A DNA stretch of 21,492 nucleotides from IMG/VR virus record IMGVR_UViG_3300047673_000388, positions 1 to 21,492 of that record, one strand, 5' to 3'. The DNA is from a virus. Shown in pieces: positions 2-19,973 of the stretch (position 1 is its first letter; each line of letters starts with the position of its first letter). Both the position numbers and the translations under genes were made by a program. A model generated the notes under the pieces. It was not told the origin of the DNA, did no database searches, and worked only from the letters and a program-made list of their open reading frames with translations.

Positions 2-727
2 GTCGGTTGGGCCTTCGAGCAGGCCCGCGAGCTCGAGCTCTCCCCGACCCAGCGCTTCGTCCTCGTCGCCTACGGCGACAACGCGAGCGAAGCCGAGGGC
101 AAGTGCTGGCCGGACAAAGAGGAGATCATCGAAAAGACCGGCTACTCGCAGGCGACGGTCTATCGGGCGATCAAGGAGCTCGAAGCCGCGGATCTGATCG
201 TCTTCACCGAGGACTCGAAGGGCCGCGAGTGCGCCTATTTGAAGGTGCCGTGGTTTTCTCACAGTGAGAAAGCCGATTCTCAGAGTGAGAAAAATAATTC
301 TCACAGTGAGAAACGCACTAATACAAGTGAAACGTCAAAGAACCGTCACAAGGGAAAGCGTCCGAAAAAAGAGGTCAATCGGAAGGCGGTTACAGACGAC
401 GAGCTGACCCTCGCTGCTGCTGTTGTTTCGATGTTCAACGAAGAGGCCGGCACCCAGCTCTCGGTCGACGCGCACCTGACGCCGATCGTCGGCCGGATTC
501 GCGAAACCCCGCGCTTCACCGAGAGCACCCACCGCAAAATCATCAAGGCCGTCTTTGCCGGCGACAATTGGTGGACGGGGCCGCCGACGCCGCGGATCAT
601 CTACGGCAACCCGGCCCAGTACGAGGCCTCGATCGAGCTCGGCCGCGCCGCGGCGAAGGAGAAGACGGAGGGCTACGACGTCAACGCCGAAGCCGCCCGG
701 ATCCGCAAAGAGCAGGGGCTCGAGTAG
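2..727 (+). CDS. Winged-helix phage replication initiator (5' truncated)
   Basis: The frame is open from base 2, so the true start lies outside the window; 241 residues are visible and end at TAG 725-727. Visible residues 1-80 form a typical winged-helix DNA-binding domain: a WPDKEEI segment, a helix-turn-helix with GYSQATVYRAIKEL as recognition helix, then the wing ADLIVFTEDSKGR. A low-complexity linker follows with a seven-residue repeat (SHSEK, SQSEK, SHSEK) encoded by DNA iterons, then a basic stretch and a helical C-terminal domain. An N-terminal HTH, an origin array inside the gene and a helicase gene directly downstream are the arrangement of lambda-O-type initiators. The role is inferred from domain and context. 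It could instead be only a regulator. Confidence 0.75.
   Translation, partial: VGWAFEQARELELSPTQRFVLVAYGDNASEAEGKCWPDKEEIIEKTGYSQATVYRAIKELEAADLIVFTEDSKGRECAYLKVPWFSHSEKADSQSEKNNSHSEKRTNTSETSKNRHKGKRPKKEVNRKAVTDDELTLAAAVVSMFNEEAGTQLSVDAHLTPIVGRIRETPRFTESTHRKIIKAVFAGDNWWTGPPTPRIIYGNPAQYEASIELGRAAAKEKTEGYDVNAEAARIRKEQGLE
256..333. repeat. Iteron array, putative phage replication origin
   Basis: Three 15-bp near-palindromes lie at 256-270, 277-291 and 298-312. The first and third are identical (TTCTCACAGTGAGAA); the second differs at one base (TTCTCAGAGTGAGAA). They recur at exactly 21 bp, two helical turns and seven codons, so the reading frame is kept. A degenerate fourth unit sits in register at 319-333 and retains AGTGA. 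The array and the following 60 bp are strikingly AT-rich against the surrounding GC-rich DNA. Position inside the initiator gene and next to the helicase gene matches lambdoid origins, where initiator dimers bind iterons beside an AT-rich unwinding region. Function is inferred. Confidence 0.75.
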
Positions 728-2101
728 ATGGGCTCGGTGACGATGCCAGAGCAGCACGTGCCGCCCCAGAACATCGAGGCCGAGGAGTCGGTGCTCGGGG
801 CGATGCTCGTCTCCGATCGGGCGCTCAAGGGGGTGCGGGTCGACTCGGGCCTGACCCCGCAGCACTTCTACCTCGATAAGCACCGCGAAATCTTCGCCGC
901 GATCTGTCGCGTCGCCGAGCGCACCGGCACCGCCGACGAGCTGCTCGTCTGCGAGGAGCTGCCGGCGCACAAGCTGCTGATCTCCGAGCTCGCCGCCAAG
1001 GTGCCGGCGGCGGGGAACGCTTTGCACTACGCGCAGATCGTTCTGCTCAACGCCCAGCTCCGAGCGAAGTTGGAAGGCGCGCAGCTGATCCAACAGGGGG
1101 TGCACGAACGGTTGGACGAGGAGCTCTCGGCGCGGCTGATCCGCGAGGGCCTGCAGCTCGCCGCCTCCGACTACACGATCGACGCCGAGCCGACGTCGGG
1201 GGAGGAGATCCTCGACGAGCTCTTCGAGCACTTCGACTCCGACCAGGAGGGCGAGGTCTTCGAGCTGCCGTGGTCGGAGCTGAACGAGTGTGTCCTCGGC
1301 GGTTACCGGCGCAAGCAGATGTCGGTGTTGGCCGGCTGGACGAACATGGGCAAGAGCTGGGTGCTCGATCAGATGATGGCCGGCTTCGAGGGGCAGGGAT
1401 TGAAAGTCGCGATCTTCGCCACGGAGATGTCGCGCGAGGAACGGGCGGCCCGGTGGTTGACCTCGCAGACCGCGGTGCCGCTCGAAAAAATCCTCCGCAA
1501 CATCCTCGACGCCGACGATCACCGCCGGTTGGCGAAGGCTCGAGCGGAGGCCAACGGCAAGCTGCCCTTCGACTACTTCGAGGCCTTCGGGTGGAGCGCC
1601 GATCGGATCTGCGAGCGGATCATCTGGGGCGGCTACGACGTCGTCGCGATCGACCCCGTCACCGAAATCCCCGGCTTTGAAAAACCCGAGGTCGCCTCCG
1701 CGGCGTCGCGCCGCTTCGCCGAAGTCGCCGGCCGGGCCAACTGCCACGTGATCGCCGTCTCCCACCTGAATCGGAAACGGCTGGGCGATCCGAAGGGGGT
1801 CAAGCCGCCGCCGGTCCTCGCCGACCTCAAGGGCTCGGGTGCCCTCGAAACCAACGCCCACGCGGTGCTCTTCTTGCACCGCAAGCAGGACGCGAAGACG
1901 GCCTACATTCTTCCCGAGGGCGAGCTCTCCTTCGCCAAGATCAGGAACGGGTTGCCGAAGAAGATCGGCGTCGTGCAGTCGAGTCGGACCCACCTGTTTC
2001 TCCACCTGGCGCCGGAGCCGGTGCACGAGCAAGAGGCGCTCGAGGTCGGTTCGATGAAGCCCTCCCACGACACCGGAGACGGCCGGGAGTTCCCGTTCTG
2101 A
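728..2101 (+). CDS. dnaB-like: DnaB-type replicative DNA helicase
   Basis: 457 residues. The N-terminal domain opens with the DnaB hallmark VPPQNIEAEESVLGAML, and the RecA-fold C-terminal domain carries Walker A GWTNMGKS (203-210), the ATEMSREE segment with the likely catalytic Glu (about 233), Walker B VVAIDP (Asp 309), a SHLNRK segment (345-350), and LADLKGSGALETNAHAVLF, matching DnaB motif H4. It would unwind DNA 5' to 3' as a hexamer at the fork. The usual SQLNR glutamine is His here. The start at 728 abuts the upstream stop; a second ATG at 743 (MPEQHVPP) is possible. The stop TGA overlaps the next ATG. No primase gene is seen in the window. Confidence 0.93.
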   Translation: MGSVTMPEQHVPPQNIEAEESVLGAMLVSDRALKGVRVDSGLTPQHFYLDKHREIFAAICRVAERTGTADELLVCEELPAHKLLISELAAKVPAAGNALHYAQIVLLNAQLRAKLEGAQLIQQGVHERLDEELSARLIREGLQLAASDYTIDAEPTSGEEILDELFEHFDSDQEGEVFELPWSELNECVLGGYRRKQMSVLAGWTNMGKSWVLDQMMAGFEGQGLKVAIFATEMSREERAARWLTSQTAVPLEKILRNILDADDHRRLAKARAEANGKLPFDYFEAFGWSADRICERIIWGGYDVVAIDPVTEIPGFEKPEVASAASRRFAEVAGRANCHVIAVSHLNRKRLGDPKGVKPPPVLADLKGSGALETNAHAVLFLHRKQDAKTAYILPEGELSFAKIRNGLPKKIGVVQSSRTHLFLHLAPEPVHEQEALEVGSMKPSHDTGDGREFPF

Positions 2102-13924: not shown

Positions 13925-14728
13925 GTGGCCGCCAAACGCGATTACAGCAGCCAGGAAATTGACATCGCGCTTGCGGCCTTTGCGACCGAGGGTGGTCGCG
14001 GGAAGCCGACTCAGAAACTCCTCCGCGATGCCGGCGTCAAAGTCCCGATCGCGACGATCCGCGGCTGGGCCTACAACACCCACAAAGAGCGCTACCAGCA
14101 GATCTCGCTCGAAGTCGAGGAGCTCGTCCGCTCGAGGATGGCGGACACCTACCAGCGCCTTGCCGAGACGTCGGCCGAGCTCTCCGAAGACGTCCTGCGC
14201 CGGCTCTCGGAGAAGCTCGTCAAGCGCGACAAGGAACTCGCCGAGGTCGAGGTTCGGCTCGAGGAGTGCGAAGAGGAATTGGGCGAGCTCGCCACGGCGA
14301 TCGGCGTCGCCCAGGTCCGGCTCGCCGAGTCGCTCGAGATCCCCAACGTCGACGCGCTGCTCGAGCAGGTTCTCGGCGAGGAGCCCGAGCGCGCCGACTC
14401 CGAGCTCGTCGCCGAGCTCACCCAGCTCTACCGTCGCCGCGAGGCCCGCGCCTCGGAGGCCCAGCGGCTCTGGGATCGCCGCGAACGGCTCGAGGTCAGC
14501 TTCAAGGATCTGAACAAAACGCTCCGCGAGTCGGCGGTGATGGGCGGCGTCTCCACCGAAAAACTGCAGCTCCTCACCGGCCAGGCAACCGAGCGAGTCG
14601 AGCACAACTTCACCGAGCTGCAGCGGGCGCTCGAGGCGAAGGGCGCCCGGCTCACGGTCGGCCAGGGCGCTCCACGTGCTTTGCCGGCTCCTCCGGTGCC
14701 GATCGACTCCACCCCCGTCGATGGTTGA
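13925..14728 (+). CDS. Candidate terminase small subunit
   Basis: 267 residues from a GTG preceded by AAAGGAGAAGGC, the best ribosome site in this part. The N-terminal 60 residues look like a DNA-binding HTH (SQEIDIALAAFATEGG, TQKLLRDAGVKVPIATIRGW). A long coiled coil follows (ELAEVEVRLEECEEELGELA, SELVAELTQLYRRREARASE) that could drive ring assembly. The C-terminus is Pro-rich. The gene overlaps the large terminase by 8 bp. Small terminases bind the packaging site and recruit the motor; the call rests on HTH plus coiled coil plus position, not on a diagnostic motif. Confidence 0.7.
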   Translation: MAAKRDYSSQEIDIALAAFATEGGRGKPTQKLLRDAGVKVPIATIRGWAYNTHKERYQQISLEVEELVRSRMADTYQRLAETSAELSEDVLRRLSEKLVKRDKELAEVEVRLEECEEELGELATAIGVAQVRLAESLEIPNVDALLEQVLGEEPERADSELVAELTQLYRRREARASEAQRLWDRRERLEVSFKDLNKTLRESAVMGGVSTEKLQLLTGQATERVEHNFTELQRALEAKGARLTVGQGAPRALPAPPVPIDSTPVDG

Positions 14729-16361
14729 GCACGTCCGCGAGGACGGCCTCGGCCCTGCGGTCCCACCCGGCTTCGAGCTCGAGATCGACGACCCCGAGCT
14801 GCTCAAGGATCCCGAGTTCCTCTCCCTGCTCGCCCAGGCCAACGAGTCGCTCGAGGAAAACCCGCTCTACCGCTACGTGCCGCACTCGCGCCAGCGGATC
14901 TTCCACGAGCACCGGGTGAAGACCAAAGCCTTCGTCGGCGGCAACCGCTCGGGCAAGTCGACGGCCACGGTGATCGACTGCCTCGTCCAGGCGATCGACC
15001 TCGACGCCGTCCCCGAGGCCCTGCGCAAGTATCGGATCTGGCCGAAGGGCACGAAGTTCAAATGCCGCTTCATCACCCCCGACTACGGCAAGCCCTTCCA
15101 ATCGCTGCTCGAGACGATTCAGATGTGGGTGCCCCCGTCGCAGCTCAAGGGCGGCTCCTGGGAGACGGCCTACAAGGACAAGGATCACGTCGTCCTCTTC
15201 GCCAACGGGTCGGTCTTCGACTTCATGACGACCGAACAGCCGCCCTCCAAGCACGGCGGCTCGGCCCGTCACCGCATCGTCTGGGACGAGGAGCCGCCCG
15301 ACACCGAAGACGGGGAACGGATCTACACCCAGGCCCGGATGCGGATCGCCGACTACCACGGCGACATGCTCTGGGGCTTCACCCCGATCTCCGAAAAGTT
15401 GGGCTGGGTCTTCGACGAGCTCCACGAGGAAGCGGTTGAAGACGGCGAGCAGCTCGAGGAGCGGGTCTGGCTGAACGAGGGCGAAGGCGTCCTGCTCGTA
15501 CAGGCCTCGATCTATGAGAACCCGCATCTCTCCGAGGAAGGCCGCGACGAAGCGATCTCCGGCATCCGCGGCGATCAGCGCGCGGCCGTGGTCGAGGGTG
15601 CCTTCACCAACGCGAAAGGGTTGGTCTGGGAGTCCTTCGAGCCCAAGCCGGCGCCGGACGGGATTCACGTCGTGCCCGAGGCCTGGCTCGAGAAGGACTA
15701 CGTCAAGTCGCTCGAACATCTCGACTCGATCGACCCCGGCCAGGTGGAGACGGCGATCCTCTTCGGCGGCGTCGACTCGAAGAACCGGATCGTCGTCTAC
15801 GACGAGCTCACCCTCTCCGGCAAGGCCGCCACCCCCGAGCGCGCCGCGGAAAGCATCGCCACCAAGCGCGAAGGCTGGGGCCTGCAGCAGATCTGCAAGT
15901 ACACGATCATCGACCCGGCCGCCCGCTCCCGCGATCTGGGTTCCGGGGAGAAAGTCGGTCAGCAGTGGATCGACGCCGGGGTTCCGGTGATCTACGGCAA
16001 GCACGATCTCGAGGCCGGCTGCACCGAGGTCGAACGCCGGCTCATTCACCACATCGACGATCCCGACAACGAGGGCGAGAAAAAGCCCTACCCCCTGATC
16101 GTGATCTCCTCCCGCTGCACCAACCTCATTCGGCAGATGCGGCGCTACCGCAAGAAACCGAAGGAGGACGGCAGCTTCGGCGTGGTCAAGAAGGACGACC
16201 ACTCCTGCGACGCGCTCCGCTACCTCTGCATGGAACGGCGAATCCCGGTGAAGCGGAAACGACGTCGGGCTCGTCAGCAAGCATGGGTGCCCGGCACCGC
16301 GCCGCCCTTCAATCCCAGCAACGAACGCCGCCAGGGCACGGTCCTTGGCAAGTTCACCTAA
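14721..16361 (+). CDS. terL: Terminase large subunit (packaging ATPase-nuclease)
   Basis: 546 residues. Walker A GGNRSGKS at 73-80 and Walker B IVWDEE at 186-191 mark the ATPase that drives DNA into the prohead. The C-terminal RNase H-like nuclease is visible through acidic residues in SIDPG (338), IIDPA (398) and DDHSCDALRY (497), with the last motif typical of large terminases. A very basic tail (KRKRRRARQQ) follows. The ATG overlaps the upstream gene by 8 bp; an earlier in-frame ATG at 14676 lies deep inside it and is less likely. Length is normal for the family. Confidence 0.95.
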   Translation: MVEHVREDGLGPAVPPGFELEIDDPELLKDPEFLSLLAQANESLEENPLYRYVPHSRQRIFHEHRVKTKAFVGGNRSGKSTATVIDCLVQAIDLDAVPEALRKYRIWPKGTKFKCRFITPDYGKPFQSLLETIQMWVPPSQLKGGSWETAYKDKDHVVLFANGSVFDFMTTEQPPSKHGGSARHRIVWDEEPPDTEDGERIYTQARMRIADYHGDMLWGFTPISEKLGWVFDELHEEAVEDGEQLEERVWLNEGEGVLLVQASIYENPHLSEEGRDEAISGIRGDQRAAVVEGAFTNAKGLVWESFEPKPAPDGIHVVPEAWLEKDYVKSLEHLDSIDPGQVETAILFGGVDSKNRIVVYDELTLSGKAATPERAAESIATKREGWGLQQICKYTIIDPAARSRDLGSGEKVGQQWIDAGVPVIYGKHDLEAGCTEVERRLIHHIDDPDNEGEKKPYPLIVISSRCTNLIRQMRRYRKKPKEDGSFGVVKKDDHSCDALRYLCMERRIPVKRKRRRARQQAWVPGTAPPFNPSNERRQGTVLGKFT

Positions 16362-17548: not shown

Positions 17549-17830
17549 TTGCTCTACCTGGCCGCCACCTGTCTCGCGCTCGTCGCCCTACTCGCATATC
17601 GCGAGTGGGGTGCTCGGCGCGATCGGCAGGAGGCGGCCGCTGAGCTCGCCAGGGAGCGCGCTGAGGCGGCCACGGAGCGTCGCCAGCTCTACCAGCGCAT
17701 ACAGGCCCCCAAGGAGGCTGTGCTCGAGCACGTGCGCGCTGAGCGCGGTCCCCACAAGCCCCGCCGGCCGATAGCCGCCGACGACGATGCTCGCTTCAAG
17801 GCGAGGGATGCGGAGGCCAACGGTGGCTGA
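17549..17830 (+). CDS. Membrane-anchored coiled-coil protein
   Basis: 93 residues from a TTG at 17549. Residues 2-17 (LYLAATCLALVALLAY) are an N-terminal transmembrane segment or signal anchor. A charged coiled coil follows (RDRQEAAAELARERAEAATE), then a basic, polar tail. It overlaps the portal gene by 8 bp. A membrane protein between decoration and portal genes is unusual. It resembles a phage Rz/spanin-type or membrane-docking protein, but lysis genes are not seen here, so the role is open. Confidence 0.65.
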   Translation: MLYLAATCLALVALLAYREWGARRDRQEAAAELARERAEAATERRQLYQRIQAPKEAVLEHVRAERGPHKPRRPIAADDDARFKARDAEANGG

Positions 17831-19973
17831 CGAAAAGAAGCCCGACGAGGCGAAGGACCCGAAGGGCAAAGAGAACGTCCCCACCGAGGTCGAAGACAAA
17901 CTCAAGCGCGGCCGCGAGGGGCTGAAAGAAGTACAGGCCCGCCGTCTGCTCGGGATCGAGTTCGCCAACAACAACCACTTCTCCGAGCTCAAAAAGGACG
18001 GCACCGCGGTCGTCAACCTCGACACGACGGCGGTTGCCCAGGGCGGCGAAAAGCCCGACCACCGGGTGCGCCGATCGCACGACATCATCTCGCCGATGCT
18101 GCAGCGGAAGATCTCCGCTTCCACCCAGCGCGAGCCCGACTGGGAATCGACCGCGGTGACCTCCGACCCCGAGGACTACGCGGCCTCGCGGATCGCGATG
18201 CGCCTCGCCCGCGCCGGCTACTCGCTCTGGGGCTTCCCCGAGTCAGAGGGCAAGGCGCTTTGGTGGGCGATGGTCACCGAGGAAGCCTTCGGCCGCGCCA
18301 GCTTCAACGCGAACATCGGCCCCTTCACCGACGTCTCCCAGCACCCCGAGGCCGACCACGAAGAAGAGGACGGCACCAAGCCGTATGAGGGCCAGAGCGA
18401 CCCGGAGAATCCGAAATGGGTCGGCCGCGGCGAGATCGCCCTGACGATCTACTCCGGGCTCGAGGTTCTCTGGGAGCCGGGTGTCGACTTCGAGAAGTCA
18501 CGTTGGTACGCGGTCGAGCACGCGCGCTCGATCGAGGAGCTCGAAAACGAGCCCGAGTTCCTCGCGGTCCCCGGCGAGAAGCTGCAGGCCGACGCCTCGA
18601 CCGTCATGCAGGGCCGCCAGACGCAGCGCGAGAAGAAGGGCTCCAAGCTCTGCATCGTCAGCGAATACTTCGAGCGGCCCTGCCCCAAGTACCCGAAGGG
18701 GCGCTGGGGCACCTACGCGAACGGGCGCAAAGTCCTCCCAGACGGCACCTACCCGCTCGAGGACGGCAAGGGCGAGGTCGTCGACCGTCCCTGCCTGCGC
18801 CGGCTGATCTATGACATCGACGGCTCGAGTGATCGGGCCAAGGGCCTCGTGCAGAAGATCATCGACGTCGTCCGCTCCTACGACCAGTCCATCAACAAGC
18901 AGTCGGAGTACAGCCAGATCGGCCTCGTCGCGCAGATCCTCGCCGCCGAGGGTGTGTTGCTGACGGACCCGACCGACGAGCCCGGCCTCGTGATCGAGTA
19001 CGACCGCAGCCTCGCCAACGGCGAAAAGCCCGAATGGCGGGAAAACATCACCTTCCCCTCCGAGCTCTTTGAAATGGAAGACCGGGCCAAGGCGCGCTTC
19101 TCCTCGATCGCCTTCGACGAGGACATCCCGCCCCAGGTCGAATCGGGCAAGGCGATCGGCCAGGTGACCGAACTCAACCGCACCGCCTGGCAGAAGTTCC
19201 TCAACGACTTCGACCGCTTCCGCTCGGACCTGATGTCGGACTGCCTCGTGATCGCCCAGCGCAAGTACGGCTCCGACCGGGTGATGAAATTCCGGGGCTC
19301 GACGGGCTGGGAGCCGGTCGGCGACTTCGAGGGTGCCGACCTCCGCGACCAAACCGACGTCGCGATCCGCCAGTCGGCGACGCAGACGCAGACGCGGCCG
19401 CAGATCGAACAGCGGATCATGCAGCTTGTCCAGACCTTCCCCAACGTCTTCCCGCCCGAAGTCGTGATCGAGGCCCTCAACTCGGCCAACCCCGAGAAAC
19501 TCATTCAGGGCTACGAAGAGGACGTCGGCCGAGCTCACCGCCTGATTCAGCAGCTCCGCGACGGCACCTTCTGGAACCAGCCGCTCCGGCCGGCGCTGCC
19601 CGGCGAGGAAGTGCTCGAGGAACGCGGCGGGCGCCCCTTCGTGCCGGGTTGGCTGCCGCGCCCCTTCGACTCCCTGCCGGTCCTCAAAACGGCGCTCGAG
19701 AACTGGATGAAGACCGACGACTGGGACCGCTCCGAGAACAAAGTCAAGGAGGCCTCGCTCTTCGTCTACCAAAAGCTGCTCGACCTCGAAACCCAGCAGC
19801 AGCTCCGCTCCCAGGAAGAGCAGGAACGGCTCGCCGAGGAACAGGGTCAGGCCAACGCCTCCCGCGAACCCGAAAAGCCGATGCCCTCGATCCCCGGCGG
19901 CGCGGCGCAGCCCGGCGGCTCCCAGCCCGGCGAAGGCGGCGGCGAAGGTGCACCGCCCTCGGCCGGCGAATAG
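17823..19973 (+). CDS. Portal protein (P22-like size)
   Basis: 716 residues from GTG 17823, with GGAGG 9 bp upstream. The N-terminus is a charged arm, followed by an alpha/beta stem and wing region including GYSLWGFPESEGKALWWAMV, SGLEVLWEPGVDFEKSRWYA and PCLRRLIYDIDGSSDRAKGL, and the long helices VRSYDQSINKQSEYSQIGLV. The C-terminus is Gln/Gly/Pro-rich (QPGGSQPGEGGGEGAPP). The size is close to the P22 portal (725 residues). It forms the dodecameric gate for DNA entry. Position after terminase and before scaffold and capsid supports the call. Confidence 0.87.
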   Translation: MADEKKPDEAKDPKGKENVPTEVEDKLKRGREGLKEVQARRLLGIEFANNNHFSELKKDGTAVVNLDTTAVAQGGEKPDHRVRRSHDIISPMLQRKISASTQREPDWESTAVTSDPEDYAASRIAMRLARAGYSLWGFPESEGKALWWAMVTEEAFGRASFNANIGPFTDVSQHPEADHEEEDGTKPYEGQSDPENPKWVGRGEIALTIYSGLEVLWEPGVDFEKSRWYAVEHARSIEELENEPEFLAVPGEKLQADASTVMQGRQTQREKKGSKLCIVSEYFERPCPKYPKGRWGTYANGRKVLPDGTYPLEDGKGEVVDRPCLRRLIYDIDGSSDRAKGLVQKIIDVVRSYDQSINKQSEYSQIGLVAQILAAEGVLLTDPTDEPGLVIEYDRSLANGEKPEWRENITFPSELFEMEDRAKARFSSIAFDEDIPPQVESGKAIGQVTELNRTAWQKFLNDFDRFRSDLMSDCLVIAQRKYGSDRVMKFRGSTGWEPVGDFEGADLRDQTDVAIRQSATQTQTRPQIEQRIMQLVQTFPNVFPPEVVIEALNSANPEKLIQGYEEDVGRAHRLIQQLRDGTFWNQPLRPALPGEEVLEERGGRPFVPGWLPRPFDSLPVLKTALENWMKTDDWDRSENKVKEASLFVYQKLLDLETQQQLRSQEEQERLAEEQGQANASREPEKPMPSIPGGAAQPGGSQPGEGGGEGAPPSAGE

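Follow-up and report, generated by a model that had tools for sequence, protein, structure and literature searches.

The window analysed here is the whole 21,492-base IMG/VR virus record IMGVR_UViG_3300047673_000388, a fragment of ~33% AT that begins with an O-like replication initiator gene (positions 2–727, plus strand) encoding an HTH_36 winged helix, a disordered linker and a helical C-terminal part. The 5′ end of this ORF is cut by the contig edge; in the relative L004 an ATG is found four codons upstream of the first whole codon of the window. The encoded protein matches PF13730 (HTH_36) with an E-value of 8.3e-10 and 38.8 bits, above the curated cut-off of 25, as well as several PHROG families labelled O-like or replication initiation protein, and Phage_rep_O (PF04492) was absent from its domain matches at E 0.01. 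In an AlphaFold model, the winged-helix domain is predicted with confidence and extends to about residue 84; it is followed by a disordered linker at residues 86–127 (pLDDT under 50), within which the iteron codons described below fall, and by a helical C-terminal part that is modelled less confidently. No Rep_3 match was obtained for the protein, the model of which has a single winged-helix domain. A plasmid tblastn search and a PDB sequence search with a three-sequence profile gave no match, and a PDB fold search returned MarR/Fur-type winged helices only, with weak E-values and no initiator among them. The next gene in the operon encodes a DnaB-type replicative helicase (728–2101, plus strand; PF03796, E 9e-25; PF00772, E 9e-19; phrog_19, E 8e-59), with a PD-(D/E)XK exonuclease and a Sak4-like annealing protein encoded further downstream. 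Judged from its sequence, the first gene of the window thus encodes an O-like winged-helix initiator, with DnaB next to it.

The linker-coding part of the initiator gene harbors three 15-bp palindromic iterons of the form TTCTCA-N3-TGAGAA, starting at 256, 277 and 298 with start-to-start distances of 21 and 21 bp, which confirms the three iterons of the original prediction and their exact spacing. Iteron 1 (256–270, TTCTCACAGTGAGAA) is a proposed initiator-dimer site and is conserved in the relatives L004 and L005, iteron 2 (277–291, TTCTCAGAGTGAGAA) has a centre that varies among relatives between constant arms, and iteron 3 (298–312, TTCTCACAGTGAGAA) has the same letters as iteron 1; none of these palindromes is assigned to a strand. 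At up to three mismatches the record contains six iteron matches (the three sites on both strands) vs 0.17 expected from dinucleotide shuffles, and no further copy was found in the whole record at this tolerance. Perfect 6-3-6 palindromes occur four times in the initiator ORF, an unrelated one at position 65 included, vs a mean of 0.55 and a maximum of 4 in 2000 rounds of synonymous resampling. The predicted AT-rich stretch is likewise present, as the 60-mer at 284–343 (not assigned to a strand) reaches 65% AT, the window maximum for this length (runner-up region, 55%), and is the proposed opening region. The assignment of the array to a left arm holds in that it lies at the left end, although this is the end of a 21.5-kb fragment only, where the contig edge cuts the gene.

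A degenerate fourth iteron, which had also been predicted, was rejected. Its best register (319–333) matches only 8 of 15 bases, a level that 182 of the 15-mers on the same strand reach or exceed across the window (the three iterons themselves included), and the relatives align GGGAACCGTCA, a different direct repeat, at this place; the register overlaps the degenerate first copy (330–337) of the AACCRTMA repeat discussed below. Elsewhere in the window, a second 21-bp tandem repeat, GC-rich and of two copies (17638–17679), sits between a terminase-like ORF (14676–16361) and a P22-portal-like ORF (17787–19973). A tRNA scan of the window was negative.

DNA-level constraint on the palindrome array

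The 21-bp period corresponds to seven codons, and the array is translated as SHSEK/SQSEK/SHSEK. In a codon comparison against L004 and L005 (74 and 73% protein identity), the array codons at which the amino acid is conserved and synonymous choices exist are identical in both relatives in 17 of 17 cases vs a fraction of 0.75–0.76 elsewhere, and GC3 is 0.37 inside the array vs 0.89 in the rest of the gene. L009 (64% identity) has kept the 21-bp spacing together with TCTCA/TGAGA cores, while L010 (33%) carries TTCCCACAGTGGGA twice, with the 21-bp spacing kept and both arms altered together in both copies. Spacing that is kept while the sequence drifts, which the original prediction had proposed to look for by alignment of related phages, was thus found in L009 and L010. 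Arrays at 21 bp are also present in L015 (TTCTCATTTTGAGAA, four copies), in an initiator-like ORF with a weak HTH_36 and Phage_rep_O match, and in L016 (TTCTCAATCTGAGAA, three copies), in an initiator-like ORF with a phage C-terminal domain; kinship of L015 and L016 to the window protein was not detected.

The HTH_36 ORF of L046, a Sulfurovaceae contig, contains TTCTCAAAATGAGAA at 24 and 21 bp, and the unrelated phage L058 has five copies of TTCTCAAAATGAGAA with a spacing of 26, 22, 23 and 22 bp, which fall into alternating reading frames and are read as the peptide SQNEN in one frame and LLKMR in the other. That L058 carries one and the same palindrome in two frames argues that it is the DNA, rather than the peptide, that is under selection, and, together with the 22–26 bp spacing in this phage, that the peptide repeat of the window simply follows from the 21-bp period. 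The earlier proposal that the DNA repeat is also a peptide repeat hence stands for the seven-codon period, but not for the peptide as a selected feature.

A strict DNA search for two copies of TTCTCANAGTGAGAA in viral contigs gave 0 matches, the pattern being too strict, and a genome scan for palindrome pairs yielded 40 loci, mostly with other spacings and outside initiator ORFs; the analysis drew only on those inside an ORF of this kind, for example L046. In L024, L031, and L033, pairs of TTCTCA-N3-TGAGAA are located beside sigma-54-type regulator ORFs (spacing 17, 22, and 40 bp) and are probably operators of an unrelated regulator. Within the initiator gene of the window, a run of T-ending codons is present at 408–430 (CTCGCTGCTGCTGTTGTTTCG, LAAAVVS) despite the gene GC3 of 0.89; its codons are identical in L004 and L005 (7/7) but not in L009, and the run may be a further origin part or reflect short shared ancestry.

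Iteron classes and the AACCRTMA repeat across the initiator family

A similarity search seeded with five relatives retrieved 80 initiator loci, of which 73 were usable and distinct, forming 32 clusters. The iterons encoded in the linkers of this family can be divided into the classes CCCCGCAG...TGC, GTCCG...CGGAC, GGTGC...GCACC and CCGGCA...TGCC. In a column-by-column test over the 32 clusters, residues 46, 49, 44, and 45 had the top association with iteron class (z ~10), residues 50 and 53 also scored high, all six being located in the recognition helix, and linker positions 82–89 were associated as well (z 4–7); as the classes were drawn from simple patterns and phylogeny was left uncorrected, these values denote association and no proof. 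The recognition-helix residues are SERAVQN in class A, GRTAVI in class B, SKRAVID in class C, and ERAVR in class E. Since they track the iteron class, it is very likely, as far as sequence comparison can tell, that the encoded protein reads its own in-gene iterons, and the association suggests a readable specificity code.

A second repeat element, AACCRTMA, which the original prediction did not mention, follows the iterons. In the window it is limited to one degenerate copy (330–337, plus strand, AAACGTCA), at the aligned place of which L004 and L005 have AACCGTCA, and one exact copy 11 bp after it (341–348, plus strand, AACCGTCA); two exact copies are present in L004, and two in L005 by alignment. 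In the 32 clusters, all of which were positive (32/32), 108 copies were counted on the coding strand and 0 on the opposite strand, directly after the iterons, whereas flanking DNA contained 15, with both strands counted and a length nearly six times greater, and codon-order shuffles gave 1.7 on average and 7 at most. The repeat was first noticed in the relatives of the window and in CUB19 and was tested on loci fetched by protein similarity, not by motif, while AACCRTCA was broadened to AACCRTMA post hoc, after reading the family linkers. In a set of 84 non-redundant initiators, whose members beyond the similarity-fetched ones were picked by motif, AACCRTMA is found in all three frames (131/96/57), with 37 frame patterns and 81 different peptides, and the copies are spaced mostly 10–13 bp apart, sometimes 20–23 or 33 bp.

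The taxonomic reach of AACCRTMA covers phages of Pseudomonadota and a cyanobacterial phage, and an actinobacterial phage has a related repeat. The strict 8-mer is present in initiator genes of Pseudomonas, Vibrio, Sphingopyxis and Microcystis phages, and related repeats occur in Arthrobacter phage Renna12 (GAACCGTCCTT), coliphage mEp460 (AACCAGTCA), and Pseudomonas phage CF183a (AACCACCAAAG). Across 398 genomes from the phylum to which a Vibrio belongs, and with simple hexamer arrays set aside, the triple repeat was found in three HTH_36-type initiator ORFs, the other loci being one beside an integrase gene and one in an RNase-E-like repeat; of 299 Bacillota-type genomes one matched, through a peptide repeat in a ComEC-like ORF. 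A winged-helix ORF was not recognised at 40 triple-motif viral loci, many of which consist of (AACCGT)n hexamer arrays or of truncated versions of the same genes. AACCRTMA is absent after the iterons of L046, L058, and lambda, and is hence not required of every such origin.

Putative origin function, proposed mechanism and rival explanations

The case for origin function is indirect. In the window, G703, and G704, the AT maximum falls on the array; in G006, a near-full-length relative of 42.7 kb, the array is nearly the AT maximum, with one 60-mer being richer, and in G007 it is not the maximum. The cumulative GC-skew, which the original prediction had named as a check, spoke for an origin at the array in G006, the one near-full-length relative for which this check is informative and where the global minimum lies 0.36 kb from the array, but not in the fragments (the window, G703, and G704), where the minimum lies elsewhere; in G007 the minimum is 0.3 kb from the array, yet carries little weight, as the array is only 1.4 kb from the contig end. 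In Pseudomonas phage MD8, the gene belonging to this family is annotated as replication protein O, and the gene order is cI, cro, CII, O, P.

As in the lambda O gene with ori-lambda, inverted-repeat iterons are located midway along the initiator gene, where the linker is encoded, and an AT-rich tract lies on their downstream side (PMC6022878, PMC7466680). The spacing of the lambda iterons is 20, 24, and 23 bp, i.e., two helical turns or slightly more. In lambda O, a flexible linker joins the DNA-binding and P-binding domains, and the origin is mid-gene (PMC6022878, PMC7466680). In contrast to lambda, the window protein is of the HTH_36 type and does not match Phage_rep_O above threshold, the three iterons are of unrelated sequence, the gene is followed by that for DnaB and not for the loader P, and the corresponding place in lambda has no AACCRTMA block. 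The HTH_36 O-like phage initiators (Pseudomonas MD8, LESphi3; PHROG 270, 391, 678) have the same domain as the window protein and in-gene palindromic iterons followed by an AACCRTMA block; the domain, the linker-coded iterons and AACCRTMA after the iterons are all found in the window, which differs from other members in its TTCTCA-N3-TGAGAA class, in its number of iterons (three, vs roughly five to seven), and in having just one exact and one degenerate AACCRTMA copy. The earlier reading of a lambda-O-like in-gene origin is thus supported by the O-like initiator, the linker-coded iterons, the spacing kept under drift and the tracking by the recognition helix, and we put the probability at roughly 70% that the locus is a compact theta-type origin of the lambda-O type within the initiator gene.

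We infer a mechanism in which the winged-helix protein, probably as dimers, would bind the three palindromic iterons in the linker-coding part of its own gene, and the bound dimers, two helical turns apart, would be aligned on one face of the DNA. The aligned dimers could strain the adjacent AT-rich stretch so that the duplex opens. In lambda, every iteron is occupied by a dimer of O, which puts strain on the AT-rich region next to the iterons and also binds the single-stranded DNA of this region (PMC6022878, PMC7466680, PMC5043065). One strand of the opened region might then be held, probably by the initiator itself, through the coding-strand AACCRTMA repeats with their spacing of about one helical turn, and the phage DnaB encoded next door would be loaded during strand capture. 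AACCRTMA is proposed as the opening or strand-capture element because it is located at the place of known opening repeats, is confined to one strand, is spaced by about a helical turn and is independent of the iterons. RK2 and F plasmids and the 13-mers of oriC likewise have iterons or boxes beside short direct repeats in the opening region, and TrfA of RK2 and RepE of F bind one strand of this region, gripping it via its repeats (PMC4081077). The plasmid Reps, however, have two winged-helix domains, while the window protein has one, and the 13-mer TAAACnTTnTTTT and the 8-mer repeats of F have no resemblance to AACCRTMA (PMC4081077). The odds are even that the O-like initiators of phages share a two-part in-gene origin code, in which a fast-changing palindromic iteron is read by the recognition helix of the respective phage and a slow-changing coding-strand AACCRTMA element, free of any fixed reading frame, serves for opening or strand capture as an apparently undescribed phage counterpart of the 13-mers of oriC and RK2.

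The main rival to strand capture, tentative but to be taken seriously, is an origin in which AACCRTMA is a duplex site for a conserved factor, either a host protein or the wing of the initiator. The spacing of 10–13 bp, with the occasional 20–23 and 33, resembles helical phasing, which is weightier for duplex DNA, and the repeat persists while the iterons change; however, every copy has the same orientation, the copies are found at the place of the opening regions of lambda and plasmids, and the absence from lambda, L046, and L058 indicates that the repeat seems to track the clade of the initiator, not the host. An autoregulatory operator, by which the palindromes would limit transcription of the initiator's own gene while replication starts elsewhere, is unlikely. 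The nearest solved folds are winged helices of the MarR/Fur type, and many bacterial genomes have TTCTCA-N3-TGAGAA pairs that lie outside initiator ORFs, in some cases beside sigma-54-type regulator genes, but the array lies in the linker-coding part and not at a promoter, also in phages with unrelated iterons, it is followed by the AACCRTMA block, and the DnaB and O–P neighbourhood is nothing that an operator would need. Improbable to a similar degree is a role of AACCRTMA in the messenger RNA, for example in translation control or transcript handling, unrelated to replication: its restriction to the coding strand would fit RNA as well as single-stranded DNA, but its position directly after the iterons is that of the AT-rich opening region in lambda, the spacing near a helical turn is unneeded in RNA, and an Rfam scan of the window gave no match. 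That the repeats exist for the sake of the peptide (SHSEK, NRKEPS), with DNA similarity following from amino-acid constraint, is very improbable, since the seven-codon period and the recurrence of NRKEPS-like peptides in part of the family are set against the two frames of the L058 iterons, the three frames and 81 different peptides of AACCRTMA in 84 initiators, the frozen synonymous codons of the array and the predicted disorder of the linker.

Implications and related repeats elsewhere

In-gene iteron origins are known from lambdoid phages; their presence in HTH_36 initiators is a natural extension of the lambdoid case, and the window is a member of this group. The shared AACCRTMA block, on the other hand, appears to be undescribed and is offered as a lead, not as a demonstrated first: in the open-access literature that was searched, lambda, Stx-phage, and plasmid origins were found but no such repeat in phage initiators, and a search by the letters of the motif returned primer noise only. 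The direction of strand opening beside an iteron array and the strand that is captured are still debated, and a repeat that remains the same where iterons differ offers a direct way into the step of opening and capture. With its help, origins could also be recognised from sequence in many temperate phages with initiators that at present bear no annotation other than 'hypothetical' or 'primosomal protein I'.

Similar repeats were observed in other settings. In L205 (7803–7833), three copies of AACCGTCA, 11–12 bp apart, lie outside any long ORF, upstream of a 746-aa phage-primase-like ORF and near several GTGACA/TGTCAC words, possibly marking a separate origin. In L265 (1501–1532), three copies of GAACCGTCAATG at 12 bp are remote from any initiator and lie a short distance upstream of an integrase-like ORF, which is on the opposite strand. 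Direct repeats of 12 bp follow the iterons in AT-richer phages, namely AAATCCTCCGTT in L016 and AATAAATCAAYT in Lactococcus phage CAP (L301), which suggests that the position of the block is shared more widely than its sequence. In the iteron class CCCCGGCA (L098 and relatives, ORF offset 398), a single AACCRTCA on the opposite strand, TGACGGTT, is often found ~20 bp downstream of the block.
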